From positions 1 to 38,413 of IMG/VR virus record IMGVR_UViG_3300042887_002537: a stretch of 38,413 nt of DNA, one strand, 5' to 3'. Of this stretch, positions 4,563-34,891 are shown in pieces; position 1 is the stretch's first letter; each line of letters begins with the position of its first letter. A model generated the notes under the pieces. That model did not search any database and was not told where the DNA came from. It was given only the letters and a program-made list of their open reading frames with translations. Both the position numbers and the translations under genes were made by a program. Origin of the DNA: a virus.

Positions 4563-4624
4563 CGTTCGATCCTTTCTGCCCCGTTGGGGCTACACCACAA
4601 CGGGTGCGGTGCAGGGGGAAAACG

Positions 4625-4654
4625 AGGGGCGGGAGCCTTTCGACTCCCGCCCCT
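4625..4654 (-). terminator. Terminator whose T-tract is part of the C-run signal
   Basis: An 11-bp GC stem (AGGGGCGGGAG with CTCCCGCCCCT) runs straight into CGTTTTCCCCC. The terminator of 4662-5144 and the upstream signal of 4299-4562 therefore share bases. Confidence 0.75.
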
Positions 4655-4661
4655 CCGCTGT

Positions 4662-5144
4662 TCACTTCCGCGTCTTGAGGGGGAGCGGAGCGGTCGGGAT
4701 GGCGGCGATGGCGTCCGCGAGAGCGGGGGTCGCGTCCTTGCCCCACTTCACCGTGCCATCCGCGAGGATGCGCCCTGCCCACTTCGCGGCGGGGTCGCCC
4801 CACTTGCCCGATGCGATGCCCACCGTGTCCTTGTTCTCGGGCTTCGCCTTGTCGGAGTCGGGGCGAGTGTACGAGAGCGTCCACTCCACGCCGTCAGCCT
4901 CCACGACGACCTTCGGGAACTTGACCGCCTGCGCCGCTGCGCGGAACGCCTCCACGAGCGGGGCGAGCGTGAGCGACGGGACGGGGTTCGCTTCCTCGTT
5001 GATGAGGCGGTCGATCCACTCCGCCTGCTTGGGGGTCGGGTTGCCCTTCGCCAGCGCACCCAGGAGGCTCGCCGCGAACTCCGCCTTCTGCGGGTTGCTC
5101 CCGATGATCTGCGCGAGAGCCGACATCTTCTGCTGCTTGTCCAT
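4662..5144 (-). CDS. Hypothetical protein, Ala-rich
   Basis: 160 residues. The N-terminal 55 residues are helical (ALAQIIGSNPQKAEFAASLLGALAKG then NPTPKQAEWIDRLI), recalling the small helical units seen in phage accessory and helicase-associated proteins. A Trp-containing part (KWGDPAAKWAGRI, DGTVKWG) follows at about 115-145. No catalytic motif. AGAAAGGA lies 9 nt before the ATG, and the C-run signal lies 53 nt upstream. Confidence 0.75.
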   Translation of the reverse strand: MDKQQKMSALAQIIGSNPQKAEFAASLLGALAKGNPTPKQAEWIDRLINEEANPVPSLTLAPLVEAFRAAAQAVKFPKVVVEADGVEWTLSYTRPDSDKAKPENKDTVGIASGKWGDPAAKWAGRILADGTVKWGKDATPALADAIAAIPTAPLPLKTRK

Positions 5145-5236
5145 TCTTGCGTATCCTTTCTGCCCCGTTGGGGCTACACCACAACGGGAGCGAGGCAGGG
5201 GGAAAACGATACGGCTGCCTAGTTCACCAAATGAGG

Positions 5237-5262
5237 AAGGGGAGCCGCTTTCGGCTCCCCTT
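5237..5262 (-). terminator. Hairpin after 5282-5485
   Basis: An 11-bp perfect stem AAGGGGAGCCG/CGGCTCCCCTT with a 4-nt loop lies 19 nt after the stop. It has no adjacent T-run. The C-run signal box (here ATCGTTTTCCCCC) follows 26 nt later. Confidence 0.6.
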
Positions 5263-5281
5263 CGGGGACGGTTCCGCCGCT

Positions 5282-5485
5282 TCAGGCGAGGGCGGTTTCA
5301 GGGGTCGGGCATTCCCAGACCTTGCCGCAGAACCACAGGCGACCCATGTAGGCGAGGCTCTGCCCCTCCGCCTCCACCTTGCGGTCGAGGCTCGTCCACG
5401 ACCGCCCGCCCTTGCCGGTCACACGCGCCTCCACCTCCACCGTGTCCCCCATGCACCCGAAACCCGCGTCGTGCTGCTTCTTCAT
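5282..5485 (-). CDS. Hypothetical small protein
   Basis: 67 residues, beta-rich pattern (DTVEVEARVTGKGGRSWTSLD, then LAYMGRLWFCGKVWEC). Cysteines occur at 11, 53 and 59, but no CxxC pair, so metal binding is uncertain. The start has AGAAAGGA upstream, and the C-run signal lies 51 nt upstream. Unknown function. Confidence 0.7.
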   Translation of the reverse strand: MKKQHDAGFGCMGDTVEVEARVTGKGGRSWTSLDRKVEAEGQSLAYMGRLWFCGKVWECPTPETALA

Positions 5486-5568
5486 GTTGCAGCGTCCTTT
5501 CTGCCCCTTTGGGGCTGACCCAACGGGAGCGGGGCAGGGGGAAAACGAGGCGGCTGCTTGGGCGCGCT

Positions 5569-5727
5569 CTACATACGCGAGAGTTCGCGCCTGCTTTCGC
5601 GTCGTGCCTTGCGGGGATCACGCGACTTCTTGCCCCAAGTCTTGGAGCGGACGCGACGACCCGCAGCGATCTCGTCCCTGCGAGTCTCCCACGCGATCTT
5701 GCGAGCGATGTCTACGACTGACTTCAT
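5569..5727 (-). CDS. Small very basic protein
   Basis: 52 residues, too short for many gene finders. It starts MKSVVDIARKIAWETRRDEI and the C-terminal half is almost all Arg/Lys/Ser (for example RRESRRELSRM), which suggests nucleic-acid binding. AGAAAGGA stands upstream of the ATG, and the C-run signal ends 39 nt before it. The ATG at 5727 is the only start matching these signals. Confidence 0.65.
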   Translation of the reverse strand: MKSVVDIARKIAWETRRDEIAAGRRVRSKTWGKKSRDPRKARRESRRELSRM

Positions 5728-5807
5728 GGCGTTTCTTCCTTTCTGCTCCCCAAGAGGGGAGGGAGAGGGGGAAAACGAGCCACAGGTGGAAGTGAGCCGT
5801 ATGTGGC

Positions 5808-6035
5808 TTACTTCTTGAGAACGATCTGCATGAGCAGGTCGCGTTCGATCTGCAACTTCTTGATCTGCTCCTCCATGTTTCGCAGTTTCGCCCGCAGGGA
5901 GTTGCATTCCTGCTGCAAGCGGTGGTTTGCGTCATGTACGGAGAGTTCGCGTTCCTCCAGCGTGACCGTATCGACCACGCTGTAGCCACTCCTGACCGGG
6001 TCTGGCTTGGTGTTCTTCCACCATTCTTCGTTCAT
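5808..6035 (-). CDS. Small coiled-coil protein
   Basis: 75 residues from the ATG at 6035, which has AGAAAGGA about 6 nt upstream. Residues 30-75 form a clear heptad-type helix (HRLQQECNSLRAKLRNMEEQ followed by IKKLQIERDLLMQIVL), probably a dimeric coiled coil. The first 25 residues are Trp/Pro-containing. Function unknown; a dimerising adaptor is possible. Confidence 0.7.
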   Translation of the reverse strand: MNEEWWKNTKPDPVRSGYSVVDTVTLEERELSVHDANHRLQQECNSLRAKLRNMEEQIKKLQIERDLLMQIVLKK

Positions 6036-6142
6036 GGGGGTTCCTTTCTGTTCCAACGGCTTGGCGGGGAGGGGAAAAAGAGGATTTGTTCCCCTAGATT
6101 CCCTTCCCCGCGAAAAGCGGTGCGCGGTGCGGTGCTTCGGTG

Positions 6143-6313
6143 CTAGCGGCGCGGTGGGTTGAAGAAATGGTTGCTTGCGTAGCCCATTCCAAGGAACCCA
6201 GCCACCACTACGGGATTGGCGTCTAGCCAGTTGATGAATGCCCACATGATGGCGGCAGACACGGTGAACGCCACACAGATCACTACGGCGATTCGAATCA
6301 TTCCCTTACCCAT
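6143..6313 (-). CDS. Small two-helix membrane protein
   Basis: 56 residues. Hydrophobic segments at about 6-29 (IRIAVVICVAFTVSAAIMWA) and 33-48 with a basic end (NPPRR). The start at 6313 is preceded by AGAAAGGA. The C-run signal 38 nt upstream has only four Cs. Probably an inner-membrane protein made early, of unknown role. Confidence 0.7.
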   Translation of the reverse strand: MGKGMIRIAVVICVAFTVSAAIMWAFINWLDANPVVVAGFLGMGYASNHFFNPPRR

Positions 6314-6365
6314 TCTGTTGCTTTCCTTTCTGCCCCAAGCAGTGCGGTGCGAGGGGAAAAAGAGA

Positions 6366-6391
6366 GGGAGGGAGCCTTTCGACTCCCTCCC
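6366..6391 (-). terminator. Terminator after 6402-6764
   Basis: A 9-bp stem GGGAGGGAG/CTCCCTCCC followed by TCTCTTTTT. The T-tract is again the first box of a C-run signal. Confidence 0.75.
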
Positions 6392-6401
6392 CTTCTCTTG
6401 T

Positions 6402-6764
6402 TCACGACACCGTGCAGCGCGGTGCGAACGCTTCCGCTTCCTTGCGTGCTGCGTCCGACACCCACGCGGGGTAGTCGTAGTCCTCGCCGTCGTTCTCACC
6501 GGAGGGGGAGATGTAGCCGACGATGACCACATCGCCCACGACGATGTCGATGCCCTTGCCGAATGCGTTCTCGTAGAGGCGCGTAGCGACGAGGTTAGCG
6601 GGCAGACCGTTGCACTTGCCCTCCTCGTTGCAGTACATCATCGCGCCGTTGCCCAAGTCGATGCCTTCGATCCAGCCACCGACACCCGACTGGAGGGACT
6701 CCAGACCCGTGTTCTCGCGCTCCTCCACCTGACCGTTCATCTTGATAACGAGCATCTTCTTCAT
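6402..6764 (-). CDS. DUF3846-like protein
   Basis: 120 residues. The order LQSGVGGWIEGIDL, MMYCNEEGKCNGLPANLVAT, then DIVVGDVVIVG matches the DUF3846 pattern (VGG.IE, YvNEEGk..gLP.N..A, D.i.G..vvvg) known from phages and plasmids. No biochemical role is established. It starts at the ATG 51 nt after the C-run signal. Confidence 0.75.
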   Translation of the reverse strand: MKKMLVIKMNGQVEERENTGLESLQSGVGGWIEGIDLGNGAMMYCNEEGKCNGLPANLVATRLYENAFGKGIDIVVGDVVIVGYISPSGENDGEDYDYPAWVSDAARKEAEAFAPRCTVS

Positions 6765-6836
6765 CTTGCGATCCTTTCTGCCCCTTTGGGGCTGTGTCCT
6801 AACGGGAGCGGGGAAGGGGGAAAACGAGGCGGTTGC

Positions 6837-7058
6837 CTAGTTTCCTCCCCTGTTGACGATGAGTTCCCCGCTGAGCAGGGACTTCACCATCTCCTCGTGA
6901 TACCGCTCCGCAGAACGGAATCCCTCATCACGCGCAGCGTCAGCCGCCTTGATGCGCTCACGGAGTTGAGCATTCTCCTCCTTGAGTTGAGCGTTCTCAA
7001 GGATGGTCGCCTTGATCGTGTCGCAAGCCATGAAGATGCTGAGGAGGGTGTCGTTCAT
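6837..7058 (-). CDS. Small coiled-coil protein
   Basis: 73 residues from the ATG at 7058, with AGAAAGGT upstream. Residues 15-60 form an obvious coiled coil (ATILENAQLKEENAQLRERI), with Leu/Asn heptads typical of parallel dimers. The hydrophobic N-terminus (LLSIFMACDTI) might pack on a partner. Unknown function. Confidence 0.7.
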   Translation of the reverse strand: MNDTLLSIFMACDTIKATILENAQLKEENAQLRERIKAADAARDEGFRSAERYHEEMVKSLLSGELIVNRGGN

Positions 7059-7161
7059 TGAAGTACCTTTCTTGTTGCCCGAAAAACTACCCGACTGGGG
7101 GAAAACGAGAGGAAGGACAGGGGAGGATGTTGCCATCAACTCCCCCATCCCTTCCGGGGGT

Positions 7162-7479
7162 TCAGATCATTCCCAAGATGCGGAGCCACGACTTGGGGTG
7201 ATCGGGTTCCACATCGTCGCCCCACGGCGTTTGGCACACGGAGTCGAACGCCATGAAGTTGAGTTCCTCCGTAGACGGGACGGGGAACCACTCCCACTCG
7301 CCTTCCTCGTTCTTGAGGTACTTGTGGGAGATGATGCCATCGTCACGACGGCAGTAGCCATCGGGAGTCTTGATCCACCTTCCGGTGCTACGCGACTGGA
7401 GGTGGGTGGGCTGACCGTGACCGTTGTTGTCGGAGTAGTCAGCGGGCTTGTCGGTGAGGTTCACATACTTGGGCTGCAT
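7162..7479 (-). CDS. Hypothetical protein
   Basis: 105 residues, rich in Trp, Asp and Tyr (RWIKTPDGYCRRDDG, EGEWEWFPVPS, SWLRILGMI). No known domain seen. AGAAAGGAAACTC fills the gap between box two of the C-run signal and the ATG, a 13-nt insert also found before 11637-12182. Confidence 0.7.
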   Translation of the reverse strand: MQPKYVNLTDKPADYSDNNGHGQPTHLQSRSTGRWIKTPDGYCRRDDGIISHKYLKNEEGEWEWFPVPSTEELNFMAFDSVCQTPWGDDVEPDHPKSWLRILGMI

Positions 7480-7533
7480 GAGTTTCCTTTCTGCCCCAAG
7501 CGGTGCGAGGCAGGGGGAAAACGAGGCGGCTGC

Positions 7534-7707
7534 CTAGAATGCGTCAGCCTTGAGGCAATCGGGGCAGAACTTGAACCACTCCCACGATTCATCGGGATAG
7601 TCGTACCTGCACTCCGTGAGGGCATCGGGATCGAATGACCCGTCACACCCGTCACATCCGCACTTTGTTCCGCTTGTGGTTGAGGACGAGTTGTCGTTGG
7701 GCTTCAT
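7534..7707 (-). CDS. Small zinc-finger protein
   Basis: 57 residues. A CxCxxC group (KCGCDGCDG) near residue 15 and a CPDC group near residue 49 could form one zinc site. GGAGG lies 6 nt before the ATG at 7707. The gene overlaps the last 56 nt of 7652-7876 in another frame, so the two are probably translated together. Short zinc-ribbon proteins like this are common in phage early regions. Confidence 0.65.
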   Translation of the reverse strand: MKPNDNSSSTTSGTKCGCDGCDGSFDPDALTECRYDYPDESWEWFKFCPDCLKADAF

Positions 7708-7876
7708 AGGTTGCCTCCAGTTGTTCGTCTGTCATTCCCGTCACGAAATGGAAGTAGGAAGGGGTGATGACTCTTGGGCTACGAGCCTCGCACTCCCTGC
7801 ATTCCGTCCATCGTCCTGCGTTGGGGTCTTGGTGAACCTCTCCGCACTTGATGCACTTGTTGGGATACTCCATCAC
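7652..7876 (-). CDS. Small zinc-ribbon protein
   Basis: 74 residues. CIKC (about 8-11) and CREC (about 26-29) form a four-cysteine zinc ribbon, followed by a helical tail (TDEQLEATYEAQRQLVLNHK). Its start overlaps the stop of 7873-8061 by ATGA. It probably binds nucleic acid or protein; target unknown. Confidence 0.7.
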   Translation of the reverse strand: MMEYPNKCIKCGEVHQDPNAGRWTECRECEARSPRVITPSYFHFVTGMTDEQLEATYEAQRQLVLNHKRNKVRM

Positions 7877-8061
7877 GCATCCTCGTCAATCACGGTGAAC
7901 GAACCGACCGTGTTGCCGTTGGAGTCCATGATGGCGTGGTTCCTCATGTCGCCTCGCGCCACCTTGCGCGCAAGACTCTCAAAGACGCGGGACACCTCGT
8001 TGAACTCGTCCACATGGAAGGCGTCGTTGTTCAGGTTGATCGTGACTCGCAGTTCAGCCAT
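7873..8061 (-). CDS. Conserved small phage-type protein
   Basis: 62 residues from the ATG at 8061, with AAAGGAA upstream. The layout is a beta strand (LRVTINLNNDAF), a helix (EVSRVFESLARKVARG), then DSNGNTVGSF. It matches a small protein type recurring in many unrelated phages (V.INL.N.AF....E..R.L..L......DsNGN.vG). The role is not known. Confidence 0.7.
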   Translation of the reverse strand: MAELRVTINLNNDAFHVDEFNEVSRVFESLARKVARGDMRNHAIMDSNGNTVGSFTVIDEDA

Positions 8062-8115
8062 TGGGGGAAGTTCCTTTCTGCCCAAAAGTCTACCACGGTG
8101 GGGGAAAAAGAGGGT

Positions 8116-8340
8116 TTAGTAACCCTCCTCGCGCTTCGTGGCGATCAGTTCGCCGTTCATGTCTCGCAGCATGAGGATGTTGAAATCGGTGGGCGACGGG
8201 AAGTTGAACGGAGTAGACCAGCACTCCATCTCCATTCCGGGCTTCACATCAGCCCACGGGAAGCACGACTTGATGCGGGCAGCATCGGTGTAGACATCGT
8301 GGAGGTACAGACCGTTGATGGGGGAAGTTCTCTTGTCCAT
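8116..8340 (-). CDS. Hypothetical small protein
   Basis: 74 residues (MDKRTSPINGLYLHDVYTDA). The start lies exactly 20 nt after the C-run box, but the spacer has no Shine-Dalgarno-like string (it reads CCGACAAACTTCTAGC before ATG), and box two is also off consensus. No domain recognised. Confidence 0.65.
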   Translation of the reverse strand: MDKRTSPINGLYLHDVYTDAARIKSCFPWADVKPGMEMECWSTPFNFPSPTDFNILMLRDMNGELIATKREEGY

Positions 8341-8374
8341 GCTAGAAGTTTGTCGGCAAAGGGGGAAAAAGATA

Positions 8375-8407
8375 GCGGGGCGGGGGAAAGGAAGTACCCC
8401 GCCCCGC
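8375..8407 (-). terminator. Strong terminator after 8422-8562
   Basis: A GC stem of about 11 bp (GCGGGGCGGGG with CCCCCGCCCCGC) is followed by TATCTTTTT, which merges into a C-run signal box. Confidence 0.75.
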
Positions 8408-8421
8408 AGGACGCAAGAAGA

Positions 8422-8806: not shown

Positions 8807-8860
8807 TCGTTGTCTCCTTTCGACAACCCAAGAGGCGGGGAACAGGGGGAAAAAGAGGAA

Positions 8861-8890
8861 GGGAGCGCATTCACTTCGGAACGCACTCCC
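8861..8890 (-). terminator. Terminator after 8904-9215
   Basis: A stem of about 12 bp, GGGAGTGCGTTC with GAATGCGCTCCC (one bulge), then TTCCTCTTTTT, which enters a C-run box. Confidence 0.7.
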
Positions 8891-8903
8891 TTCGCAGAAA
8901 GGA

Positions 8904-9325: not shown

Positions 9326-9355
9326 GCCGCAAATACTCCGGTTGAGGGGGAAAAA

Positions 9356-15365: not shown

Positions 15366-15401
15366 ATCTCAAACACTCCGGTTGAGGGGGAAAACGAGAG
15401 A

Positions 15402-15425
15402 GGGGAGGGGCTTGCGCCCCTCCCC
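15402..15425 (-). terminator. Strong terminator after 15433-16452
   Basis: A 10-bp stem GGGGAGGGGC/GCCCCTCCCC with a GCAA loop, then TCTCTCGTTTT, leading into a C-run box. Confidence 0.8.
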
Positions 15426-20633: not shown

Positions 20634-21053
20634 TCAACTTTCTGTAGTCACAGGCTGTCCAATAACTTCGTGCTGATTCGGCTCACACATACCGCCTTCA
20701 GCAGAGTCTTGCTCCTTGCTCAAAGCCTTTGCGCCACGGATCATCCACGAACGCAGGGGGAGTTCCTTGAGCCAATCTTGAAGCGTGGGAATCATACCCA
20801 TGTCCTCAAGAACGTGCTGTTCGCCAAGCATTCGGGTGGGGACAGGCTTGCCGTCTGACTTGCGAACGATCACCTCACCAAAGACTTGCTGCGCCATGTA
20901 GATGCCGAAAGACGAATGGAGAACAGAGCGGTGACGCGCATCGGGAAGATGAGCCTTCGTCTGATCGAACCATTCATGTAGAGCGATGTAATCTTCCGGC
21001 TGACCACCAAACTTCTTGGCGGAACTCTTGGCGTGGTAGTAAGGGTGGCTCAT
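20634..21053 (-). CDS. DUF6915-like protein
   Basis: 139 residues. MSHPYYHAKSSAKKFGGQPE, DYIALHEWFDQTKAHLPDAR, HRSVLHSSFGI and LGEQHVLEDMG with DW are close to the DUF6915 pattern (HPyyHA.SS.k.FGG, DY...H.WFD..K, RHR, EQHV.ED.G). Many His/Asp residues suggest a metal site, but activity is unknown. Starts 20 nt after a C-run box. Confidence 0.8.
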   Translation of the reverse strand: MSHPYYHAKSSAKKFGGQPEDYIALHEWFDQTKAHLPDARHRSVLHSSFGIYMAQQVFGEVIVRKSDGKPVPTRMLGEQHVLEDMGMIPTLQDWLKELPLRSWMIRGAKALSKEQDSAEGGMCEPNQHEVIGQPVTTES

Positions 21054-21089
21054 GTCGTAAGTTCCGGTGCGGTGGGGGAAAACGAGGGT

Positions 21090-25470: not shown

Positions 25471-25509
25471 AAAAAGGTGAGGGGGAGGGCGAACCCTCAA
25501 CCCCTCACC
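25471..25509 (-). terminator. Strong terminator after 25505-25771
   Basis: A 9-bp GGTGAGGGG/CCCCTCACC stem with an inner GAGGG TTCG CCCTC hairpin, followed by TTTTTCTCTTTTT. The stop codon of 25505-25771 lies within the stem. The T-tract continues into a C-run box. Confidence 0.85.
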
Positions 25510-25771
25510 CTTCCGGGGGCTTATTGAGTTTCACAAGATTGGGTCCGAACTCAGGATACGCAATACCCTGAGCGTCCAAAGAATCATAATACTGGTTCAA
25601 TGAAGCACCGCTACCCGCAACAGGACTCGCATTCCTTCCAGTTACCAAGTTGTACAGTCCAACTCGCACCATCGGACTGAGGATTGGCTGAGGCAAAGAC
25701 GGCGTATTATCAACCTGATTGATGATACGGCTTGTCTTTCGACTCTTACTGTATAGAGGATTGCGCTCCAT
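25505..25771 (-). CDS. Hypothetical protein
   Basis: 88 residues, MERNPLYSKSRKTSRIINQV, then Pro/Ser-rich and Gly/Ala-rich parts without clear secondary structure. No C-run signal and no ribosome site; instead TATACTAAT lies 8 nt before the ATG, so a leaderless mRNA from a sigma-70-like promoter is possible. Unknown function. Confidence 0.55.
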   Translation of the reverse strand: MERNPLYSKSRKTSRIINQVDNTPSLPQPILSPMVRVGLYNLVTGRNASPVAGSGASLNQYYDSLDAQGIAYPEFGPNLVKLNKPPEG

Positions 25772-25850
25772 GTCTATTAGTATACAAGTCTACATTCTTC
25801 TTGGTACGAAATCTCTCCATTTTTCCCAAGAAAGTTGACCATCGTAGATT

Positions 25851-25887
25851 AAAAAAAGATAGCCCCGATCTCCGACAATCGGGGCTA
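25851..25887 (-). terminator. Terminator after 25911-26228
   Basis: A 10-bp stem TAGCCCCGAT/ATCGGGGCTA with an 8-nt loop and a TCTTTTTTT tract. It separates the tRNA-Met/membrane gene unit from 25505-25771. Confidence 0.9.
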
Positions 25888-25910
25888 CCCCATCCCTCTC
25901 TCCTTGGCTC

Positions 25911-26228
25911 TTACGCAGAAGCTTGTCCGATAATCTCGTTCAAGTTCTGAATGATGATCTGCGCTTCAGCATCGCCAGACTCAGCGCGCCTCTTGATTGC
26001 CCGAATCGCCCACGCAGCGCTCTTGATGAGTCCCTGCGTCTTCACTTCCTCAAGACCACGGGGGCAAGCCCATCCGTTGTCGTTGACTGAGCGAGCGTAG
26101 ACACCTGGCTTGAACTCAACGGTGCTGACGGCATCTTCGCAAACGCGAACATACTGTCCTGCACTATCTCCGTTCAAAACCGCAAGGCGGTCAAGACCAC
26201 CTTTGGAGTTACTTGGGCGGCGCGACAT
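25911..26228 (-). CDS. Hypothetical small protein
   Basis: 105 residues. Beta N-terminal part (VRVCEDAVSTVEFKPGVYAR) with a Cys/Trp turn (NGWACPRG) and a C-terminal helix (SAAWAIRAIKRRAESGDAEA). The ATG overlaps the stop of 26228-26560 (TGATG), so translation is coupled to that membrane protein. Confidence 0.65.
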   Translation of the reverse strand: MSRRPSNSKGGLDRLAVLNGDSAGQYVRVCEDAVSTVEFKPGVYARSVNDNGWACPRGLEEVKTQGLIKSAAWAIRAIKRRAESGDAEAQIIIQNLNEIIGQASA

Positions 26229-26560
26229 CAGCGAGCGTCTTTCTGTTTGTTCGTGCAGATGCGACTCTCAACCTGAGCCAGTTCACGGCGCACTCCATCA
26301 ACATCTCTCTGGATGCTGTCTTCAACGGAACTAACGTGATTGTACATATCACGCCGATTGTTGTCAGTTTCAACATTCATCTCATCAAAACGACGAGTGA
26401 AGTGAGCGGAACTGGCGATTGCACCAGCAATGATGAAGAACTGCGAACCAAACAGAAAATACATGGAATACTGCGGCGCACTCATGGTGGCAGCAGAACC
26501 AAACAGCATTCCTGCACCGATGCTGAAAAGGATCACAGAGGTCTTGTTTCTTTCGTTCAT
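26228..26560 (-). CDS. Membrane protein with cytoplasmic coiled coil
   Basis: 110 residues from the ATG at 26560 (AAGGAGA upstream). Two hydrophobic helices at about 7-27 and 35-57, then a coiled coil (FDEMNVETDNNRRDMYNHVS, VEDSIQRDVDGVRRELAQVE). The layout resembles small two-helix membrane anchors. No C-run signal; it follows tRNA-Met. Confidence 0.7.
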   Translation of the reverse strand: MNERNKTSVILFSIGAGMLFGSAATMSAPQYSMYFLFGSQFFIIAGAIASSAHFTRRFDEMNVETDNNRRDMYNHVSSVEDSIQRDVDGVRRELAQVESRICTNKQKDAR

Positions 26561-26634
26561 TTTTTCTTCTCCTTGATATTCGTAAAAGTGACTAGGCATA
26601 CGCCACGGTAAAAGCTTTATCCGTCTAGGCATAA

Positions 26635-26708
26635 TGGGAGATGTGGGGTTCGAACCCACGACCAAGCGATTATGAGTCGCCTGCTCTTGACCGCTGAGCT
26701 AATCTCCC
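26635..26708 (-). tRNA. tRNA with CAT anticodon (elongator Met, or Ile2)
   Basis: 74 nt. Acceptor GGGAGAT/ATCTCCC. Anticodon loop CTCATAA on a GGCGA/TCGCT stem. T-loop TTCGAAC. It lacks the initiator GGG/CCC anticodon-stem pairs. Elongator Met versus lysidine-modified Ile cannot be settled by eye. Confidence 0.9.
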
Positions 26709-26748
26709 ACCTAGTAATATCCAACAGATAGAGAAGTGATACGGAATC

Positions 26749-26991
26749 TCAACCAATCCAGACTTCTTCTTGCTTGCTTTTTTCATTCACGATCTTTTTT
26801 GCGCCATACATAAGCCTTGGCTTACTCTGACGGAAAATAGCGTTTTTGTTAGCGTGAATGGCAGCAGTCACCCCATGATCGTACCCGGTTTTGTGTCCGT
26901 CTTTGTTTCCCTGAGCGTAACCGAACTTCCAGCCAAAGTAAGCGGAAGCCACAGAGCAAATAGCGATACCGATCCCGTAAACCATTTCCAT
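26749..26991 (-). CDS. Small membrane protein
   Basis: 80 residues with one N-terminal transmembrane helix (MVYGIGIAICSVASAYFGWK), then a Gly/His/Asp-rich loop and a basic tail. AAAGGGATTCA precedes the ATG. It lies between the tmRNA terminator and tRNA-Met. Confidence 0.65.
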   Translation of the reverse strand: MEMVYGIGIAICSVASAYFGWKFGYAQGNKDGHKTGYDHGVTAAIHANKNAIFRQSKPRLMYGAKKIVNEKSKQEEVWIG

Positions 26992-27020
26992 TGAATCCCT
27001 TTCTGTATTTAGTAGAAAAT

Positions 27021-27048
27021 CCCTCGCCCAGATTTCTCTGAACGAGGG
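27021..27048 (-). terminator. tmRNA terminator
   Basis: A 12-bp stem (CCCTCGTTCAGA with TCTGGGCGAGGG, two G-U pairs) and a GAAA tetraloop, followed by ATTTTCT, 10 nt after the tmRNA 3' end. Confidence 0.9.
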
Positions 27049-27057
27049 CTTGCTGAA

Positions 27058-27412
27058 TGGAGCCGAGGGGAGTCGAACCCCTGTGTTGGCAAAAGTCCTA
27101 TCGCACCTTCTCCACGCTAGGTACGAGTCCGTCGATCAAAGGAGTCCTCGTACCATGAGTCCTTTGAAAGTTCCAAATCATATAATATTAACTTCAGCGC
27201 CTTATGCGTTGGAACTTCGCAGTACGCTGATCGACACTTCAGACAGTTCTTAGAAGCAAGTGTCCAACTTCTAAGAACTTTGCTGCATCAAGCAGCGACA
27301 GCCATCAACGATTCGTTGGCGGTTGTTGTTTGATCGGCTTTTTACGAGTTGCCCATCAGCCTCGTCGTGCAGTATCGAATAGTCCTTCAGCAATCGAAAC
27401 CAGTTCAGCCCC
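27058..27412 (-). ncRNA. ssrA: tmRNA (ssrA), one-piece
   Basis: 355 nt. 5' GGGGCTGAACTGGTTTCGAT and 3' CGGCTCCA form a 7-bp acceptor stem with two G-U pairs; the T-arm is AGGGG TTCGACT CCCCT. The resume codon GCC at 27338-27336 follows a GTAAAAA stretch and opens ADQTTTANESLMAVAA followed by TGA (27288). Paired segments downstream of the tag fit pseudoknots. CCA is not encoded, so host CCA-adding enzyme is needed. tmRNA with SmpB rescues stalled ribosomes and tags the product for ClpXP/ClpAP. A phage ClpS gene at 32478 is nearby. It probably shares the sigma-70 promoter at 27793-27821. Confidence 0.93.
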
Positions 27413-27450
27413 TTCACAGCCCATATTTCTATGGAACTGGGAAAAGTCCT

Positions 27451-27741
27451 TTACTCACGATCTGTTTTCCGCATCGCCTTCTGAGCAATGTTCTGCTCAA
27501 GACGGCTAGCAAAAGTCAGCAGATCGGCATTTGATCCATCAAGAATCATGTTGCCATTGTCATCAGAGCAGCAGTCACGGATCATGCCGATGATCTCCTC
27601 AGCAAGAGCATCGTTCATGCCCACAAGAACTCCCTGCGTGACAGGACTTGGAGGGAACACCCATCCATGAAGCCTCTGACGAGGTGTTGCATTTTCTTCA
27701 GTCAGACGAATAGACGAACTGCGAACAGAAATGTGACTCAT
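27451..27741 (-). CDS. Hypothetical protein upstream of tmRNA
   Basis: 96 residues, AAGGAGT 7 nt before the ATG. N-terminal beta part (SHISVRSSSIRLTEENA), a GWVFPPSPVTQGVLVG loop, then acidic helices (ALAEEIIGMIRDCCSDDNGN). Transcribed from the consensus promoter at 27793-27821, 38 nt before the tmRNA 5' end. Unknown function. Confidence 0.7.
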   Translation of the reverse strand: MSHISVRSSSIRLTEENATPRQRLHGWVFPPSPVTQGVLVGMNDALAEEIIGMIRDCCSDDNGNMILDGSNADLLTFASRLEQNIAQKAMRKTDRE

Positions 27742-27792
27742 GTTGAACTCCTTTTGTAAAAGGTAAATGAAGAATAAAACTCAGACATACAT

Positions 27793-27821
27793 AGTATAGC
27801 GTTGGTTCAATGGAGTGTCAA
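27793..27821 (-). promoter_or_regulatory. Consensus sigma-70 promoter for 27451-27741 and tmRNA
   Basis: TTGACA, 17 nt, TATACT on the minus strand, about 50 nt before the ATG at 27741. One base short of full consensus in the -10 box. Unlike the C-run signal this should be read by unmodified host RNA polymerase. Confidence 0.85.
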
Positions 27822-27854
27822 GTCCATTCTGTCCACTTTTATTATGAGACTAAG

Positions 27855-27928
27855 CGTTCCCGACTGGGCTCGAACCAGTAACCTGCCGCTTAGAAGGCGG
27901 CTGCTCTATCCAGTTGAGCTACGGGAAC
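27855..27928 (-). tRNA. tRNA-Arg (anticodon TCT)
   Basis: 74 nt. Acceptor GTTCCCG/CGGGAAC. Anticodon stem GCCGC with loop CTTCTAA. T-loop TTCGAGC. Discriminator G; CCA not encoded. The 3' end of the 27890-28138 frame lies inside it. Confidence 0.93.
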
Positions 27929-28138
27929 AGTTTTGCGTTTAGCGCAGTCAGGACAAATCCTGGTTTTTTCATCCTTCTTGCTTGGATACCATCCGTAAGA
28001 GGCGCCGCCACTCACATCTTTGCCACACACGGTCTTGCCGTCACTAGAAATAAAATGCGTGATAAGACCCTTGATGGAGTCCCAAGCGATTCCGTTCCCA
28101 ATGGTTTGCGTAGCCTGATTGATACGAGGTTCGGGCAT
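27890..28138 (-). CDS. Small zinc-binding protein ending inside tRNA-Arg
   Basis: 82 residues from the ATG at 28138. HFISSDGKTVCG and RICPDCAKR supply His/Cys ligands of a common small phage zinc-finger type. The frame has no stop before the tRNA and ends at the TAA in the anticodon loop, so the last 13 residues are encoded by tRNA-Arg sequence. A TTG at 28186 is a longer but less likely start. Confidence 0.6.
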   Translation of the reverse strand: MPEPRINQATQTIGNGIAWDSIKGLITHFISSDGKTVCGKDVSGGASYGWYPSKKDEKTRICPDCAKRKTVPVAQLDRAAAF

Positions 28139-28184
28139 CTCATTGGGTACTATCCAAGATTTCTCGCAAGTGATACAAAAGCAC

Positions 28185-28219
28185 AACGGCGAGTCGCTTT
28201 TTTAGGGCGACCCGCCGTT
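28185..28219 (-). terminator. Terminator after AT-hook gene
   Basis: A 13-bp stem (AACGGCGGGTCGC with GCGACTCGCCGTT, one G-U pair) and a 9-nt loop containing AAAAAA, followed by GTGCTTTTG. T-runs on both sides mean it may work in either direction. Confidence 0.85.
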
Positions 28220-28238
28220 GGAACTTTTTCAATCAGAC

Positions 28239-28910
28239 TCAGGCGGTCTGAGCGACTTCAGCCGTCTGCTCTGCCGGGGCGTTGCTGCCCGACCAAGCAT
28301 ACGAACCACGCTCAGGGCGGCTGGCAAGTCCATCAGTCACCATGCGGCTCAACTCCTGAGCCACCTGAGTGTTGAGCGACTTGCTCGTAAAGCCCTGACC
28401 CTTGAGGGTTTCAGCGATGGCAGGAGCCTTCACCGGACCATTGGCGTTGCGGAGAGCGTTAGTGACCGCATCGCGCATGGTCATGCCGTTCGGGTTCTTC
28501 GCCTTGCGACCACGGCGAGAGGCGGTTGCGCCACCCTTCACCGTCTTGCGCTTGGCAACCGACCCCTTCGGGCGACCGGGACCACGCTTGGCAGCGGGGC
28601 GACCCGGACCCTTCTTCGCCTTGGGGCGACCCGGACCACGCTTCTTCTTCGGGCGACCGGGACCACGCTTCGCCTTCGGGCGACCGGGCTTCCGGTTCTT
28701 CGACCCCTTCGGGCGACCGGGACCACGCTTGCCCGTGTCCTCCTCGCCACCTTCGTTCGGGGCGGCAACCGTCGCTGACTGATCCAACTGCGTCAGCGAG
28801 TTGTAGAGGTTGACAGCCTGAAGGAAAGTGTTGCGGTCCAACTTCAACTGACGGCTGATGATGTCAGCCGGGTTCGGGGCAAGAACCATGCCCGTGTTGC
28901 TGTTCTTCAT
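28239..28910 (-). CDS. Multi-AT-hook protein with HARE-HTH-like domain
   Basis: 223 residues. An N-terminal helical part (1-45) is followed by six AT-hook cores at 65, 76, 85, 94, 103 and 112 (each PGRP, mostly KRGPGRPK). A winged-helix region at about 143-206 (TMRDAVTNALRNANGPVKAP, IAETLKGQGF, VTDGLASRPERGSYAW) resembles HARE-HTH. AT-hooks insert into the minor groove of AT-rich DNA. Likely a nucleoid or xenogeneic-silencing-type regulator acting on host or phage DNA. It has its own sigma-70 promoter and a long structured leader. Confidence 0.85.
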   Translation of the reverse strand: MKNSNTGMVLAPNPADIISRQLKLDRNTFLQAVNLYNSLTQLDQSATVAAPNEGGEEDTGKRGPGRPKGSKNRKPGRPKAKRGPGRPKKKRGPGRPKAKKGPGRPAAKRGPGRPKGSVAKRKTVKGGATASRRGRKAKNPNGMTMRDAVTNALRNANGPVKAPAIAETLKGQGFTSKSLNTQVAQELSRMVTDGLASRPERGSYAWSGSNAPAEQTAEVAQTA

Positions 28911-28936
28911 TTTGAAGAAACTCCTGTTAGTAAGAA

Positions 28937-28971
28937 CTGCCGATTGGATGAATCAGATTGACCCTCGGCAG
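28937..28971 (-). promoter_or_regulatory. Leader hairpin of AT-hook gene
   Basis: CTGCCGA and TCGGCAG pair over 21 nt in the transcribed leader, about 26 nt before the start codon. It leaves the AGGAG ribosome site free. Possible translational control; unproven. Confidence 0.45.
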
Positions 28972-29797: not shown

Positions 29798-29912
29798 CTT
29801 TTCTCCTTGCCACCTAAACAAGTCATGCGACTTGGTTTGTGGCTCTCAAGTGCTACTGTCAACCGGAACATCCGGCTGACTCTCCAACTTCCCCCACGGA
29901 GGGGGAAAAAGA

Positions 29913-29938
29913 GGGAGAGGGGCTTTCGCCCCTGTCCC
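29913..29938 (-). terminator. Terminator after 29944-31194
   Basis: An 11-bp stem GGGACAGGGGC/GCCCCTCTCCC (one mismatch) with a GAAA loop, then TCTTTTTCCCCC, the T-tract being a C-run box. Confidence 0.8.
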
Positions 29939-29943
29939 CCATA

Positions 29944-31194
29944 TTAGCCCACACCCACTTGAATGTGGTCGCCATAAGGCGGCTTGACATTCGTGGTCGT
30001 GACCCAAAGGACATCGACTTCGGGCTGATCTCCAAACTCGCCGTAGCCATCGGTGAGGTACACCATAATGTCCACGGGGACTTTCTGCTCCTTGAGGTGG
30101 TCAAACACGGGACGGAAATCGGTTCCGCCGCCGCCCTTGAACGCCGTTGGGCAGGACTGATCGGGACTGATCCAACGCCCGTCATGGACTTCCGCATCAC
30201 ACTCCACAAGGTAAAGAGGGCAGTTGAACTGACGGCGAATCTCATCAATCTCAGCGATTGCCTGAGCCATCTCTGACTCACCAATCGAACCGGAGGTGTC
30301 CACGGCAAAGCCGATCTTCGGGGCATCGTTGCCGTACATGGACGGCAAGTAAAGACCCTGATGGACAAAGCGGCGGTTCGGGGGCATGAAGGTGTAGTGA
30401 TCCCGCAGGATGCGAGTCACGCCAAAGCGGAGGTACTGCTTGAGTGCTTCGCGCCAATCAATCTTGCTGCCCAACTTCTCCGACACGGCACGATCAAGAG
30501 ACTCAGGCATATCGCCCTGCATCTTTGCACGGGCATGGCTCAAGGCGATTGCCTGATCCCAACCCTGCTCGTTGCCCTTCTTTTCGGCACGGCGATCACG
30601 GATCACGATGCCATCGCCATCGCCATCGCCATCCTCGCCCTTGTCGCTGTAGTCAACATCGCCCGAAAGCGTGTAGACCTTCACGGTCTTGGCGTTGCGG
30701 ATGACATCTTCGTAAATCTCCTCAGCGGACATCCCCGCGTACTTCTTGTCAAGCAGGACACCCTTCGGCAGATACTTGGAATCGTTGAAGTTGTCCGACA
30801 GGAGGAGGTTGATGGCGTAGTCAATCGCAACATTCCAAAGCAGCGGATCACGGCTCTGACGGCGATCAATGTGACTGAACGCAGCGTGACCGATCTCATG
30901 CGCGAGGACGAACAACGCCTGATCTTCGGTCAAGTCCTTGAAGAACTTTGCTCCGAAACTGATGTTGCCGTATCGGTCAACACAGGCGGTCGGAACATCC
31001 TTGTCGGACTTGATCGACACCTTGCAGTTCTCCGCAAGCAGTCCCCAAAAGGGAAAGAAGCGGTACATACGGAACACGATGCCCTTCATGCGCTCACGGA
31101 GTTCGTTGAGTTCAGAAGGCGTGAGTCCGACATCCTGAGCGTTGTCGGCAGCAGGAGCGGCGGTTGCGGTGGAGTTGTTCTTCTTCTTTGCCAT
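29944..31194 (-). CDS. VWA-domain metallopeptidase-like protein (DUF2201)
   Basis: 416 residues. N-terminal zinc-peptidase-like domain with AHEIGHAAF (HExGH at 99-103), typical of DUF2201_N. C-terminal VWA-like domain with DTSGS (299-303, MIDAS), GGGGTDF (366-372) and LTDGYGE. In this family the VWA protein works with a MoxR-type AAA+ ATPase, which lies directly upstream (31275-32297). The pair likely remodels or matures a protein complex. Ser/Ala/Asn-rich start. 20 nt after a C-run box. Confidence 0.88.
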   Translation of the reverse strand: MAKKKNNSTATAAPAADNAQDVGLTPSELNELRERMKGIVFRMYRFFPFWGLLAENCKVSIKSDKDVPTACVDRYGNISFGAKFFKDLTEDQALFVLAHEIGHAAFSHIDRRQSRDPLLWNVAIDYAINLLLSDNFNDSKYLPKGVLLDKKYAGMSAEEIYEDVIRNAKTVKVYTLSGDVDYSDKGEDGDGDGDGIVIRDRRAEKKGNEQGWDQAIALSHARAKMQGDMPESLDRAVSEKLGSKIDWREALKQYLRFGVTRILRDHYTFMPPNRRFVHQGLYLPSMYGNDAPKIGFAVDTSGSIGESEMAQAIAEIDEIRRQFNCPLYLVECDAEVHDGRWISPDQSCPTAFKGGGGTDFRPVFDHLKEQKVPVDIMVYLTDGYGEFGDQPEVDVLWVTTTNVKPPYGDHIQVGVG

Positions 31195-31232
31195 GTCCCA
31201 AGTCCTTCGGGGAAGGGGGAAAAAGAGGGAGA

Positions 31233-31258
31233 GGGGGAGAGCGTTGCCGCCCTCCCCC
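31233..31258 (-). terminator. Terminator after MoxR-type gene
   Basis: An 11-bp stem GGGGGAGGGCG/CGCTCTCCCCC with one mismatch and loop GCAA, then CTCTCCCTCTTTTT. Confidence 0.7.
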
Positions 31259-31274
31259 CACTCCTGCGGGGGGA

Positions 31275-32297
31275 TTACTTCTTGATCCCGTACTTCGTCA
31301 GCAACTTCTCATGGGTCAGCACCCACTTGTGAGCAGACTTGCTCTCACACACAGCGGTCTTGACATGAGGATCGGAGGTGAGAGTACGGACAAAGAACAG
31401 ACACGCGATCTCCGGGGACAGGGCAGACACGATCTCACAGCACCGATCCGCGTTCGTGGTCACGAACTTCTTGTCACCACGGGACAGGCGGGAAGCGAGA
31501 GCCATCGCCACAGCGTAGGAAATGCTGATCTTCTTGGGGTTCTCCTTGAACTCAGCCTTCTTCGCAATCAGAGCGTCAATGTCGGGCATATCCCGAATCT
31601 CCGTCCGATACGCCGTGAACTCCGCAGCAGCACCCTTGCCGACAAGAGGCTCCATGTCCTCCTGCTCGTCAAGACCCGCCTGAAGGAACTTCGACACGCG
31701 ATCCCACGAACGGGGGGAGGCAAAGTTGGCGTACTCGTCCTTCGGATCGGTCGTGAGCAGACCGGGGCGGAAGTTGAGGAAGCCGATCACATGGTCGTGA
31801 ACTCCCGCACCCATCGCCCACGCAGACCAAGCCTCAACGGACGGCTCGTACTCAACCACGGCAAAGCGGTTGCGGAGCGGTGCGGAGAGCGGGTTGACAT
31901 GAGCCTTGTGGGAAGCCTTGTTTCCCGCAGCCACGATGTACCAACCATCGCCCAACTTATGCGGACCACACTTGCGATCAAGGATGATCTGAAGCGCAGC
32001 GTTCTGCACGGCAGCGGGGGCGGTGTTCAACTCATCAAAGAAGATGATGCCCTTGCCTTCAGCCGGGATGAACTCAGGACGCGCCCACTCAACCACGGAC
32101 TCACCATCGCCGTTCTGCTTGACGGTCGGCAGACCACGCAGGTCAACCGGATCAAGCATGGACAGACGGACATCAATCACGGTGTCCCCGTCCGCTGCCT
32201 GATGAACCATCTGCGACTTGCCAACACCGGGCGCACCAAAGATGAAGGTGGGAACACCCGTCTTGCGGTTGCGCTTGATCTTCTCAACGAGATTCAT
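31275..32297 (-). CDS. MoxR-type AAA+ ATPase
   Basis: 340 residues. Walker A GAPGVGKS (21-28), DVRLSMLDPVDLRGLP (42-57), Walker B GIIFFDEL (83-90), sensor-1 N126 in VAAGNK and the R140 region. These are MoxR/RavA-class features. The short N-terminus begins right at the ATPase core. It couples ATP use to the VWA protein downstream. GGAGCAATAACAA precedes the ATG. It lies downstream of tRNA-Gly, with a C-run box 79 nt upstream. Confidence 0.9.
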   Translation of the reverse strand: MNLVEKIKRNRKTGVPTFIFGAPGVGKSQMVHQAADGDTVIDVRLSMLDPVDLRGLPTVKQNGDGESVVEWARPEFIPAEGKGIIFFDELNTAPAAVQNAALQIILDRKCGPHKLGDGWYIVAAGNKASHKAHVNPLSAPLRNRFAVVEYEPSVEAWSAWAMGAGVHDHVIGFLNFRPGLLTTDPKDEYANFASPRSWDRVSKFLQAGLDEQEDMEPLVGKGAAAEFTAYRTEIRDMPDIDALIAKKAEFKENPKKISISYAVAMALASRLSRGDKKFVTTNADRCCEIVSALSPEIACLFFVRTLTSDPHVKTAVCESKSAHKWVLTHEKLLTKYGIKK

Positions 32298-32393
32298 TTG
32301 TTATTGCTCCAAACTTTAGAAACGATTGTATGGTTCTCCCCGCTGGAGTCCCAACGCCCTCAAATCCCCCACCGGAGGGGGAAAAAGAGGGAA

Positions 32394-32465
32394 TGCGGTA
32401 GGGGAGGATCGAACTCCCATGACGGGTTTGGAAAACCCGCGTAATAGCCATTATACGACAACCGC
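32394..32465 (-). tRNA. tRNA-Gly (anticodon TCC)
   Basis: 72 nt. Anticodon stem CGGGT/ACCCG with loop TTTCCAA. T-loop TTCGATC. The D-arm GTATAATGGCTATTAC is glycine-type. The acceptor GCGGTTG/CTACCGC has one T-T mismatch at its sixth pair, so stability may be reduced. Confidence 0.92.
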
Positions 32466-32477
32466 AGTCTTTTGTAA

Positions 32478-32756
32478 TCAATCCGGCTCAATAGTGACCG
32501 TGAGAGCCTTGGACTTCAACTGATCCTGTAACAGTTCAGCGTGTTCCTTGTGCGTCACGGACACCACGGACATCCCTTCCTTATCGACTTCAACAGTCTT
32601 GAGGAGGGCGGTCTGCTTGTCCATTTTGATGATTTCCATGAAAGTCCCAATAACGTGATTGTAGGTGTTCACATCATCGTTGTGAACAATCACCTTGTAC
32701 ATGGGAAGCGGCTTGAATGTGGGCTTGTTGTTTACCAAACTTGTTTCGTTATTCAT
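32478..32756 (-). CDS. clpS: ClpS-like ClpAP adaptor with altered N-degron pocket
   Basis: 92 residues from the ATG at 32756 (GGAGGA 7 nt upstream). MYKVIVHNDDVNTYNHVIGT and EVDKEGMSVVSVTHKEHAEL are clear ClpS core blocks. ClpS binds N-degron substrates and hands them to ClpA; a phage copy could redirect host proteolysis. N26-D27-D28 match E. coli N34-D35-D36. But the pocket His (E. coli H66) is D58 and the gatekeeper Met40 is Tyr32, at the same gap-free offset. Specificity is probably changed. It lies 2 nt after the RadA-like gene in a sigma-70 transcript that also carries tRNA-Gly. Confidence 0.9.
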   Translation of the reverse strand: MNNETSLVNNKPTFKPLPMYKVIVHNDDVNTYNHVIGTFMEIIKMDKQTALLKTVEVDKEGMSVVSVTHKEHAELLQDQLKSKALTVTIEPD

Positions 32757-32758
32757 GT

Positions 32759-33703
32759 TCAATCCTCCGATTGGGTGATGTCTCCGACAGGCTCAATGCC
32801 CGTTGCTGTGTGCTTGAAGCAACCTTGGATACCTGACATTCCCCATCTGTTTTTCGTACAACGGATGGCGAATCCTCCCGTATCACGGTCACGAACTGCC
32901 GTAAATACAGAGTCCACAAGATGTTCCAACACACGACTTCCTGCGACTTGTTCGCGCTTGTTCAACTGACCGACAAGAACGACATGGATGTTGTGTTCCA
33001 CGGCAGCAGCCTTGTAAGCCGCGATGCAGCGTTCCATGCCTGTCTTGTTCTTTGCTTCTTCAAGCATCTGAATAGAGTCAACCACGACAAGATCGGGCTT
33101 CTCCTTGTCAACGACCTTCAACTGCTCCTTCAAAGAGCGGATGTCTCCGCACCTAAACCGTGCGCCTGACTTGATTTGAGACTTTGATACAGTCTTGAAC
33201 TGCTCAAGTGCAAACTCATTTTGCCAATAAAGTGCCTTGAGTGCAGGTCGATAGTCCGGTGCGCTGATCTTGCCGCAGACAGCGATCATGGCGCGAGTCT
33301 TGCCCACGCCGGGGCTTCCCGCAATCAGGCTGATTTGCCCGCGAGGAAATCCCTTGATCTTCCCATCTTCTGAAAAACCCCACAGCATATCAATGTGGTC
33401 GATACCACAAGCAAAGCGGACAAGTTTCTTGTCTGCAATCTTGTCAAGTGAGGTGACCGTTCCACCGCCAATAAGTGCGCTCACTTCTGCATTCTCTTTC
33501 TGATCTGTGCGATACCGTGAACGGCATACGCGAATATGGTTGATAAGGGACTGTTGATCTGACTTCAGTTCAGGGTGTGCGCTCAAGACTGCGCTTACAA
33601 TCTGAGATTCACTCCAACCAAGCATTTGGACCATGAACTCAACTTCACGGTTGAGACTCAGGCTTCCAAGCATTCCTTCGACTGGGATTGATGTTCGTGG
33701 CAT
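32759..33703 (-). CDS. RadA/Sms-like recombination ATPase
   Basis: 314 residues. N-terminal helical part (1-85) in place of the RadA zinc finger. GFPRGQISLIAGSPGVGKT has Walker A (129-136), LVVVDSIQML Walker B (205-214), then VGQLNKREQVAGSRVLEHLV and the RadA-specific KNRWG (284-288). The C-terminal Lon-like domain of cellular RadA is absent. RadA promotes branch migration in recombination and repair; a DnaB-type helicase is less likely given KNRWG. The start codon lies 17 nt after the TATAAT of its promoter without a ribosome site. Confidence 0.82.
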   Translation of the reverse strand: MPRTSIPVEGMLGSLSLNREVEFMVQMLGWSESQIVSAVLSAHPELKSDQQSLINHIRVCRSRYRTDQKENAEVSALIGGGTVTSLDKIADKKLVRFACGIDHIDMLWGFSEDGKIKGFPRGQISLIAGSPGVGKTRAMIAVCGKISAPDYRPALKALYWQNEFALEQFKTVSKSQIKSGARFRCGDIRSLKEQLKVVDKEKPDLVVVDSIQMLEEAKNKTGMERCIAAYKAAAVEHNIHVVLVGQLNKREQVAGSRVLEHLVDSVFTAVRDRDTGGFAIRCTKNRWGMSGIQGCFKHTATGIEPVGDITQSED

Positions 33704-33720
33704 AAAAAGTGCAACCTGTG

Positions 33721-33748
33721 ATTATAGCCTGTGTATGCTATCGTGCAA
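33721..33748 (-). promoter_or_regulatory. Sigma-70 promoter of radA-like/clpS/tRNA-Gly unit
   Basis: TTGCAC, 16 nt, TATAAT on the minus strand. Transcription would start about 10 nt before the ATG at 33703, giving a nearly leaderless message. Confidence 0.8.
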
Positions 33749-33787
33749 GCATATTCTTGCCGCTTTTTGATAGATTACAAACTTTTT

Positions 33788-34762
33788 TCAGTTTGCATCT
33801 CCACTTAGTTGGTACATCCGCCTCAAGGTTCGCATCTCACCCGAAACCTTTGCGCTGCTGTGCATCAGGTTGAAAAAAGGCGGAATAAGGCGACAGGTAC
33901 GAATCACGAAATCCTTGTGACCACCTTCCCACTTGCCGTTCAGGTAGGAAGTCATCCAGCCAGCATCACGGCGGCGGGTCTTTTTGCCACCAACGCTGTG
34001 GTTGTCAAGATCACCCTTGATGCGCTGCATATTCTCCCTGTCCTTGCGGCAGATCGTGCAAATGTGCATGAAAAGATCGTCGTAAATCTCCTCCATGTCA
34101 GGGCGGACAGAACTATCCGAAAGCCCCTCACGGCTCAGGGTGGTGGGAGCATCCATGTCGAACGCATGAGTAAAGCCAAGCGCAGTCTTTGCAACTTGCA
34201 GGATGCGATCCTTCGGCATAGAACGATTACGGACGAAACGATTGAGAAGGAACGGGCGAGAGGCAAAAGCCTTGGCGACAAGCGCAGGATGATCCTCAAA
34301 AAGCCCGTTCCATTGATTGTCCGTAACCTGAACGAAAACCTGACTTTCCATGCAGCCGCTTCCATTGCGACCACCGCCAAAGTCCGATTCGCTCAAGACA
34401 AAGGACAAGATGTCCGGGTTCGTGATGACAGACGGAGCGATATCGCTCTTGCCAAGCATGGTATGACGCTGTGAACCACCCTTGCGGTCACTAAGCACAG
34501 CGTTCAGAAGCGTCATAACCGCTTCCTTGTTTTCGCTCAAGGCTCCCCATACGGCGCTCGTAGAACCATACCCATACCCCTGAGCGATACGCATGGTCGC
34601 AGGAACGCGATAGTCCATCTTGGCAACCTGAGCAATCAGCCCGTGGTCGTAGTAACGGACATTGCTTCCCATGTGACGGACGGCGATCTCGCACAGACTG
34701 CGAACTGTCTCCGTGGGTAGTGACTCAAAGGGGATGTCTTGAAGGCTGAAGTCTGCGCTCAT
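33788..34762 (-). CDS. Hypothetical protein
   Basis: 324 residues. Helical N-terminal part (ESLPTETVRSLCEIAVRHMG), a middle with ALVAKAFASRPFLLNRFVRN, a possible Cys pair (ICTIC) and a basic patch (GGKKTRRRD), then a helical end (MRTLRRMYQLSGDAN). The repeated 'fraction surviving' style helices recall leucine-rich-variant proteins, but no family is certain. The 77-nt leader follows a C-run box. GATAGATTACA occurs on both sides of the gene. Confidence 0.65.
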   Translation of the reverse strand: MSADFSLQDIPFESLPTETVRSLCEIAVRHMGSNVRYYDHGLIAQVAKMDYRVPATMRIAQGYGYGSTSAVWGALSENKEAVMTLLNAVLSDRKGGSQRHTMLGKSDIAPSVITNPDILSFVLSESDFGGGRNGSGCMESQVFVQVTDNQWNGLFEDHPALVAKAFASRPFLLNRFVRNRSMPKDRILQVAKTALGFTHAFDMDAPTTLSREGLSDSSVRPDMEEIYDDLFMHICTICRKDRENMQRIKGDLDNHSVGGKKTRRRDAGWMTSYLNGKWEGGHKDFVIRTCRLIPPFFNLMHSSAKVSGEMRTLRRMYQLSGDAN

Positions 34763-34891
34763 GGGACTGCCGATAGATTACATCAAAGTTTGGGTAGTGG
34801 AAGCGACCGTTGCCGCTTTTCGCCAATCTCCCCTCGGGAGGGGGAAAAAGAGGGAACTTCCAACCATGACATGGCAATCCGATAAAGAGAC

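Follow-up and report, generated by a model that had tools for sequence, protein, structure and literature searches.

What is the signal that recurs, on one strand and at fixed distances, before dozens of genes of a block in an uncultured phage? The DNA concerned is a 38,413-base fragment of such a phage (virus record IMGVR_UViG_3300042887_002537 of IMG/VR), which we refer to as the window, meaning the whole stretch analyzed, and which is labelled G000 among the contigs compared with it. The signal is bipartite, with a first box matching CTCKTTTTCCCCC and a second box, TTGNGG, at a set distance behind it. We propose that it is probably a phage-specific promoter that would start RNA 33 nucleotides (nt) past the first base of box one. 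This reading is the best available because the boxes are replaced in concert among relatives, a pyrimidine-purine step is fixed at the candidate start, hairpins lie at the candidate 5′ ends, terminator-like hairpins lie upstream of the boxes, and sigma-70 promoters show no excess.

On the minus strand, 39 matches to box one with up to two mismatches span positions 4614-34852, in agreement with the roughly 39 copies counted by eye in an earlier, sequence-only reading of the same DNA. Over the entire window there are 42 matches against 2.4 expected, and 100 shuffles gave a maximum of 8. That reading had asked whether the motif is as frequent inside genes or on the other strand, and it is not: 36/39 boxes fall outside called minus-strand genes, and the only good plus-strand match, at 35377, lies within a plus-strand open reading frame (ORF; 34892-35611) and was dropped as a probable chance occurrence. 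The TT of box two stands at a spacer of 13 nt from the C-run of box one in 38/39 copies; nearly every other spacer tested gives 0-1 copies, the nine at spacer 12 being due to TTT runs. The complete TTGNGG is found at spacer 13 in 17/39 copies, and both boxes appear in strict form in 13. Box two is therefore a loose consensus around a near-invariant TT. In 18 copies, against 17 in the earlier count, the start codon lies exactly 20 nt past the C-run, which is 33 nt from the first base of box one; in the remainder it follows after 33, 34, 38, 39, 51, 53 or 69-103 nt, so that the three further distances first reported (33, 38 and 51 nt) are present among several others. The AGAAAGGA described behind box two in the 33/38/51-nt group was confirmed and is a plain Shine-Dalgarno sequence. 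One correction concerns the extent of the signal: a stretch of tRNA and transfer-messenger RNA (tmRNA) genes at 25.5-28.9 kb is free of it, so not every block gene has a copy.

The relatives of the window provide the strongest evidence on what the boxes do. One contig, G001, differs very little from the window and has 37 motif copies, and in the close relatives G002-G004 the motif persists as nnCTTTTTCCCCC, in 22-30 copies that are confined to one strand (both counts at up to one mismatch). A scan of the whole collection with the strict pattern found it only in the G000-G004 contigs and a few short ones. G005 and G006, which are collinear with the window block (ATPase 85% identity), contain zero boxes of the window type and have their own signal, CCCGAATCCCGAAAAC-N10-TTAGGGC, in 41 and 18 copies. 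The box of G007 and G008 is ACCGGCGCGCA, with 14-15 matches, and a search with a 139-aa protein of the block led to further lineages with GGCGTCAAAAC (G020, 55 copies), GGCGTCGTCCC and GTCCCGGCA, as well as to TTTCATC-N4-[AG]AATAAACTA in the 146.7-kb contig G018, where about 34 copies, all on one strand, lie within 69.9-97.2 kb. The exchange can be followed gene by gene: 23 genes with a G005 box have an orthologue in the window, 21 of these have the window's box upstream, and the distances match in many pairs (33/33, 88/92, 88/82). Before the orthologues of phrog_8143, which encodes the 139-aa protein, the core of most lineages ends about 10-20 nt ahead of the same ATG, L163 being an exception, and a TT at +26/27 is common to the G000, G003, G005 and G006 lineages. 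In G018 an AT-rich core, TAAACT, occupies -12 to -7 of the ATG in an orthologue whose start is conserved elsewhere, and in its other copies TAAACT is followed by about 6 nt and then ACAAGGAG. A further occurrence of ACCGGCGCGCA, at the end of G032, was not used, as it sits in a repeat with no clear downstream gene. That dozens of dispersed sites were swapped together with their geometry kept argues for a trans-acting factor that co-evolves with the sites it reads, and pairing with the ribosome is a poor account of the replacement because rRNA does not change in this way. A more distant relative (G025, G026; L171, L175) encodes an RpoD/RpoS-like sigma of its own (261 aa), and several of its genes are preceded by TTGACATTTTGNAAATAATT repeats.

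The position of the candidate transcript start is marked in the sequence as well. The base before the ATG is C in 15/18 exact-start copies of the window, 18/18 of G003 and 36/38 of G020. The same pyrimidine-purine step appears at +33 in copies whose gene does not start there (16/21 in the window, 15/21 in G003, 23/32 in G005) and at +26 in the corresponding copies of G020 (11/17), compared with 18-26% at the following positions. The binomial P values are 1e-6, 1e-5, 6e-8 and 6e-4 for the window, G003, G005 and G020, near-duplicate copies included and with the counts of the window and G003 not independent of each other. In the leadered copies, the first 30 nt from the candidate start fold at -5.2 vs -2.8 for shuffles in the window and at -7.1 vs -4.2 in G005, and the first paired base is at a median of nt 4 and at the earliest at nt 1 (GTCAGCCGGATGTTCCGGTTGAC). 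A hairpin at the extreme 5′ end is a known device for stabilizing mRNA. If the signal acts in DNA, box one, at -33 to -21, would be the specificity element, whereas TTGNGG (-7 to -2) together with a C/A or other pyrimidine/purine step would mark the start region. In about half of the copies the start base would then be the A of the ATG, giving a leaderless or nearly leaderless mRNA, and in the other copies the RNA would open with a short hairpin, a AGAAAGGA ribosome site or both.

Hairpins are also found on the far side of the boxes. The 45 nt upstream of a box fold at -15.6 vs -9.9 for shuffled sequence, 16/39 copies fall below -15 kcal/mol, and several of these hairpins are terminator-like, with box one serving as the tail or with CTCTTTTT following. 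Under the promoter reading, an upstream gene that ends in a hairpin running into the box would leave the genes as separate transcription units, which a phage-supplied factor would switch on together. One could suppose instead that the array is nothing but intrinsic terminators: box one would supply, in its T-run, the tail that ends transcription of the upstream gene, everything else would be a coincidence of compact spacing, and the strong hairpins, which about 40% of copies have directly upstream, would fit this. We consider it very improbable, in line with the earlier reading's doubt about terminators alone: strong hairpins are missing from about 60% of copies, the replacement boxes CCCGAATCCCGAAAAC and GGCGTCAAAAC keep the geometry with no T-run, and neither the C-run nor the fixed TT nor the exact distance to the start is explained.

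Several observations weigh against a promoter, and some of them favor a signal that acts in RNA. Some copies are near-duplicates, the counts of the window and G003 are not independent, and the window's box has no AT-rich -10. More pointedly, the 13-nt spacer between the boxes is Shine-Dalgarno-like in 12/18 exact-start copies of the window vs 2/21 of the others, and in 14/18 vs 2/21 in G003. Such a sequence is useless on an mRNA that begins at the ATG, so the spacer looks transcribed; it might be used on read-through transcripts, or the RNA start may lie further upstream. The boxes could accordingly be part of a leader, where a phage protein or RNA would bind box one in the mRNA and stimulate translation, or a nuclease would cut at the pyrimidine-purine step. 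Cutting at +33 would also account for the step and for the 5′ hairpins, the box of other lineages lies directly before AGGAG and the ATG, and known start-associated sequences are located at ribosome sites (PMC3203893). We nevertheless regard an RNA-level leader as rather unlikely. The distance to box two is fixed even where the ribosome site is elsewhere, the first copy of the array has no recognizable promoter upstream, and the G018 box resembles a DNA promoter sequence. The sequences flanking the boxes show no covariation beyond that at chance offsets; a conserved stem around the G005 box, convincing by eye, was unsupported when its partners were shuffled between copies (best z 2.9, 16 offsets). 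An Rfam search of the window returned tRNAs and the tmRNA only, with no leader RNA family. The earlier preference for a phage-specific promoter is thus partly supported, by the concerted replacement, the step, the hairpins and the lack of a sigma-70 excess, while the spacer keeps its alternative, a translation-initiation element, in play.

If the signal is a promoter, what reads it? A scan of the block for sigma-70 promoters (TTGACA-16/18-TATAAT) gave chance level and none at the boxes, bearing out the earlier statement that the signal matches no such promoter, and good sigma-70-like promoters are present inside and at the edge of the signal-free tRNA/tmRNA stretch. Also weighing against the promoter reading, the box-carrying fragments, which are incomplete genomes, yielded no sigma factor (PF04545, PF08281) or Rpb2-type subunit (PF00562) above cut-off, and no single-subunit polymerase (PF00940), the last in a search for which no positive control gave a hit. 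Scans for DxDGD/DxDxD and PHROG scans of large ORFs found no RNA polymerase. In G002-G004, the protein that shows a weak sigma-70 region 4 match also matches HNH and helix-turn-helix families weakly, and it was not counted as a sigma. G018, G019 and G029, in turn, encode a 268-aa sigma of the FliA/WhiG family, and proteins related to it at 40-45% are encoded by G030, G032 and G034. The right end of G030, a low-GC contig, is syntenic, at 68-72% nucleotide identity, with sequence flanking the window's block in G001, and phages of the window's kind therefore probably carry such a sigma.

This sigma is a candidate reader of the boxes, not an answer. A sigma of this type normally reads TAAA-N15-GCCGATAA. 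A narrower version of the promoter reading, in which it works with the host RNA polymerase and a divergent box specificity, draws on its presence in relatives, on the G030 synteny and on the AAAGTTT/AAACTTT of the G018 box, which resembles a sigma-28 -35. We judge it unlikely in this form. TAAA-N15-GCCGATAA is absent from the boxes, which have no -10 of that type, a further point against a promoter, and counts of GCCGATA are at background. No sigma gene was found on the incomplete G000, G003 and G005 fragments, region 2.4, which contacts the -10, is near-identical between lineages, and, as a weak indication, GACGATAA-like sites occur instead ahead of low-GC genes. Among the 7-mers that precede such genes, the top ones are GACGATA in G018 and CGATAAA in G003, both like a sigma-28 -10, with total counts not above background.

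Among described systems, the nearest are the motifs of Microbacterium clusters EC and EG and the start-associated sequences (SAS) and extended SAS (ESAS) of cluster K mycobacteriophages and cluster EF Microbacterium phages, all repeats before gene starts without a known function (PMC3203893, PMC7302621). The SAS/ESAS repeats are asymmetric, about 13 bp long, in one orientation and before the starts of non-structural genes in 11-19 copies, with a linked upstream element whose consensus differs by subcluster in cluster K (PMC3203893, PMC7302621). The window motif is likewise asymmetric, in one orientation and before many genes of one block. In the SAS, however, repeat and ribosome site coincide (GGGATAGGAGCCC, at 3-7 bp from the start codon), with pairing to 16S rRNA (PMC3203893, PMC7302621), whereas box one of the window has no GGAG or ribosome site and ends at least 20 nt before the start, ribosome sites lie in the spacer or behind box two, copies number 39-55, and the whole core is replaced between relatives. 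Because it is not a ribosome site, the window motif does not qualify as a SAS. Both may still be instances of one phenomenon, which here has many more copies and a much plainer succession of replaced cores. The 18-bp motif of cluster EC is also an asymmetric repeat upstream of the ribosome site, 21-30 bp before starts in 12 copies, but a second box, a leaderless class and concerted replacement are not described for it in the available part of that report (PMC7302621). In Thermus phage P23-45, the motif proposed as the promoter of a non-virion RNA polymerase is GC-rich and precedes mapped starts (PMC10770324), which makes promoters with no AT-rich core possible in principle. The likeness is one of description. 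No such polymerase was found on the fragments studied here; the window's ATPase does have a 40% relative in Thermus phage phiFa. Promoters of the T7 type and of other phage polymerases are numerous, near-identical sites on one strand at a fixed distance from the start, and their specificity shifts with the polymerase between related phages. Here, too, the sites change together between related phages, but the signal is longer (33 nt to the start), bipartite and leaderless.

A megablast of the first 25 kb of the window against a collection of cultured phages gave no match, and some of the window's genes are related to genes of Streptomyces phages. The 139-aa protein (20634-21053) matches such phages, for example Jay2Jay (47%), and Gordonia phage Bantam (41%), and relatives at 41-43% occur in Herpetosiphon genomes (L217-L220). 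In 50 kb of Jay2Jay we found no comparable motif, only tRNA-derived repeats, and no sigma. The ATPase gene (31275-32297) has many distant relatives, with 19 loci in IMG/VR; a search for relatives with the HNH protein returned mostly unrelated contigs and was set aside. A high GC content (0.48-0.63) sets the block apart as an island from the remainder of these genomes, which is GC-poor (about 0.30-0.35). One GC-poor part, 1-32 kb of G003 (L031-L032), is a large cluster of glycosyltransferase-, epimerase- and methyltransferase-like genes with an adenylosuccinate-synthetase-like gene. Elsewhere, a phage contig (L040, about 2640-3560) has some 15 copies of a roughly 36-bp repeat, GTTGTGATNACCCATTTTTTGACGGGTGTTGACACC, every 65 bp or so with unlike spacers, and looks like a CRISPR array.

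Table. Window coordinates of the array, of representative copies and of associated features.
Feature	Position	Strand	Remarks
Array of 39 bipartite copies	4614-34852	minus	One strand, mostly intergenic
Most upstream (first) copy	34840-34852	minus	In a short divergent gap beside plus-strand gene 34892-35611; no sigma-70-like promoter upstream
Box one, typical exact-start copy	21074-21086	minus	Box two TTACGA at 21055-21060; start codon at 21053
phrog_8143 gene, 139 aa	20634-21053	minus	Downstream of exact-start copy 21074-21086
Box one, typical leadered copy	5537-5549	minus	Box two at 5518-5523; candidate transcript start at 5516
5′ hairpin AGCCCCAAAGGGGC	5503-5516	minus	Begins at candidate transcript start; AGAAAGGA (Shine-Dalgarno) and the ATG (5485) come next
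Hairpin GTCAGCCGGATGTTCCGGTTGAC	29858-29880	minus	First base is the candidate start; box one at 29901-29913
Terminator-like hairpin GGGGAGGGGCGCAAGCCCCTCCCC	15402-15425	minus	Directly upstream of copy 15386-15398; tail is box one
Terminator-like hairpin, 15 pairs	8858-8893	minus	Directly upstream of copy 8845-8857
tRNA/tmRNA stretch, signal-free	25500-28960	minus	Sigma-70-like promoters at 29019-28992 (at edge) and 27821-27793

The motif-free stretch contains six tRNAs and a phage tmRNA (27058-27412, minus strand), which lies between tRNA-Met and tRNA-Arg and has the predicted tag ANESLMAVAA. Also on the minus strand, 28239-28910 encodes a protein with repeated KRGPGRPK-like stretches that resembles AT-hook and histone H1-like nucleoid proteins.

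For this family of large phages, comparison of the contigs suggests, with confidence about evenly balanced, that a block of small genes is run from promoters private to these phages, that the recognition code of the promoters has been exchanged as a whole on several occasions (about seven dissimilar cores) with start geometry and leaderless output held fixed, and that a putative phage transcription factor changes its specificity as a unit with some 15-55 sites. If so, these phages would offer a natural series of regulators, each with dozens of sites, in which the code has changed jointly and repeatedly, and which could be used to learn how regulators shift specificity without breaking their regulon. 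They would also suggest a testable mechanism behind the start-associated repeats of actinobacteriophages, which still lack an explanation, and they might provide mutually orthogonal promoters for making leaderless mRNAs.

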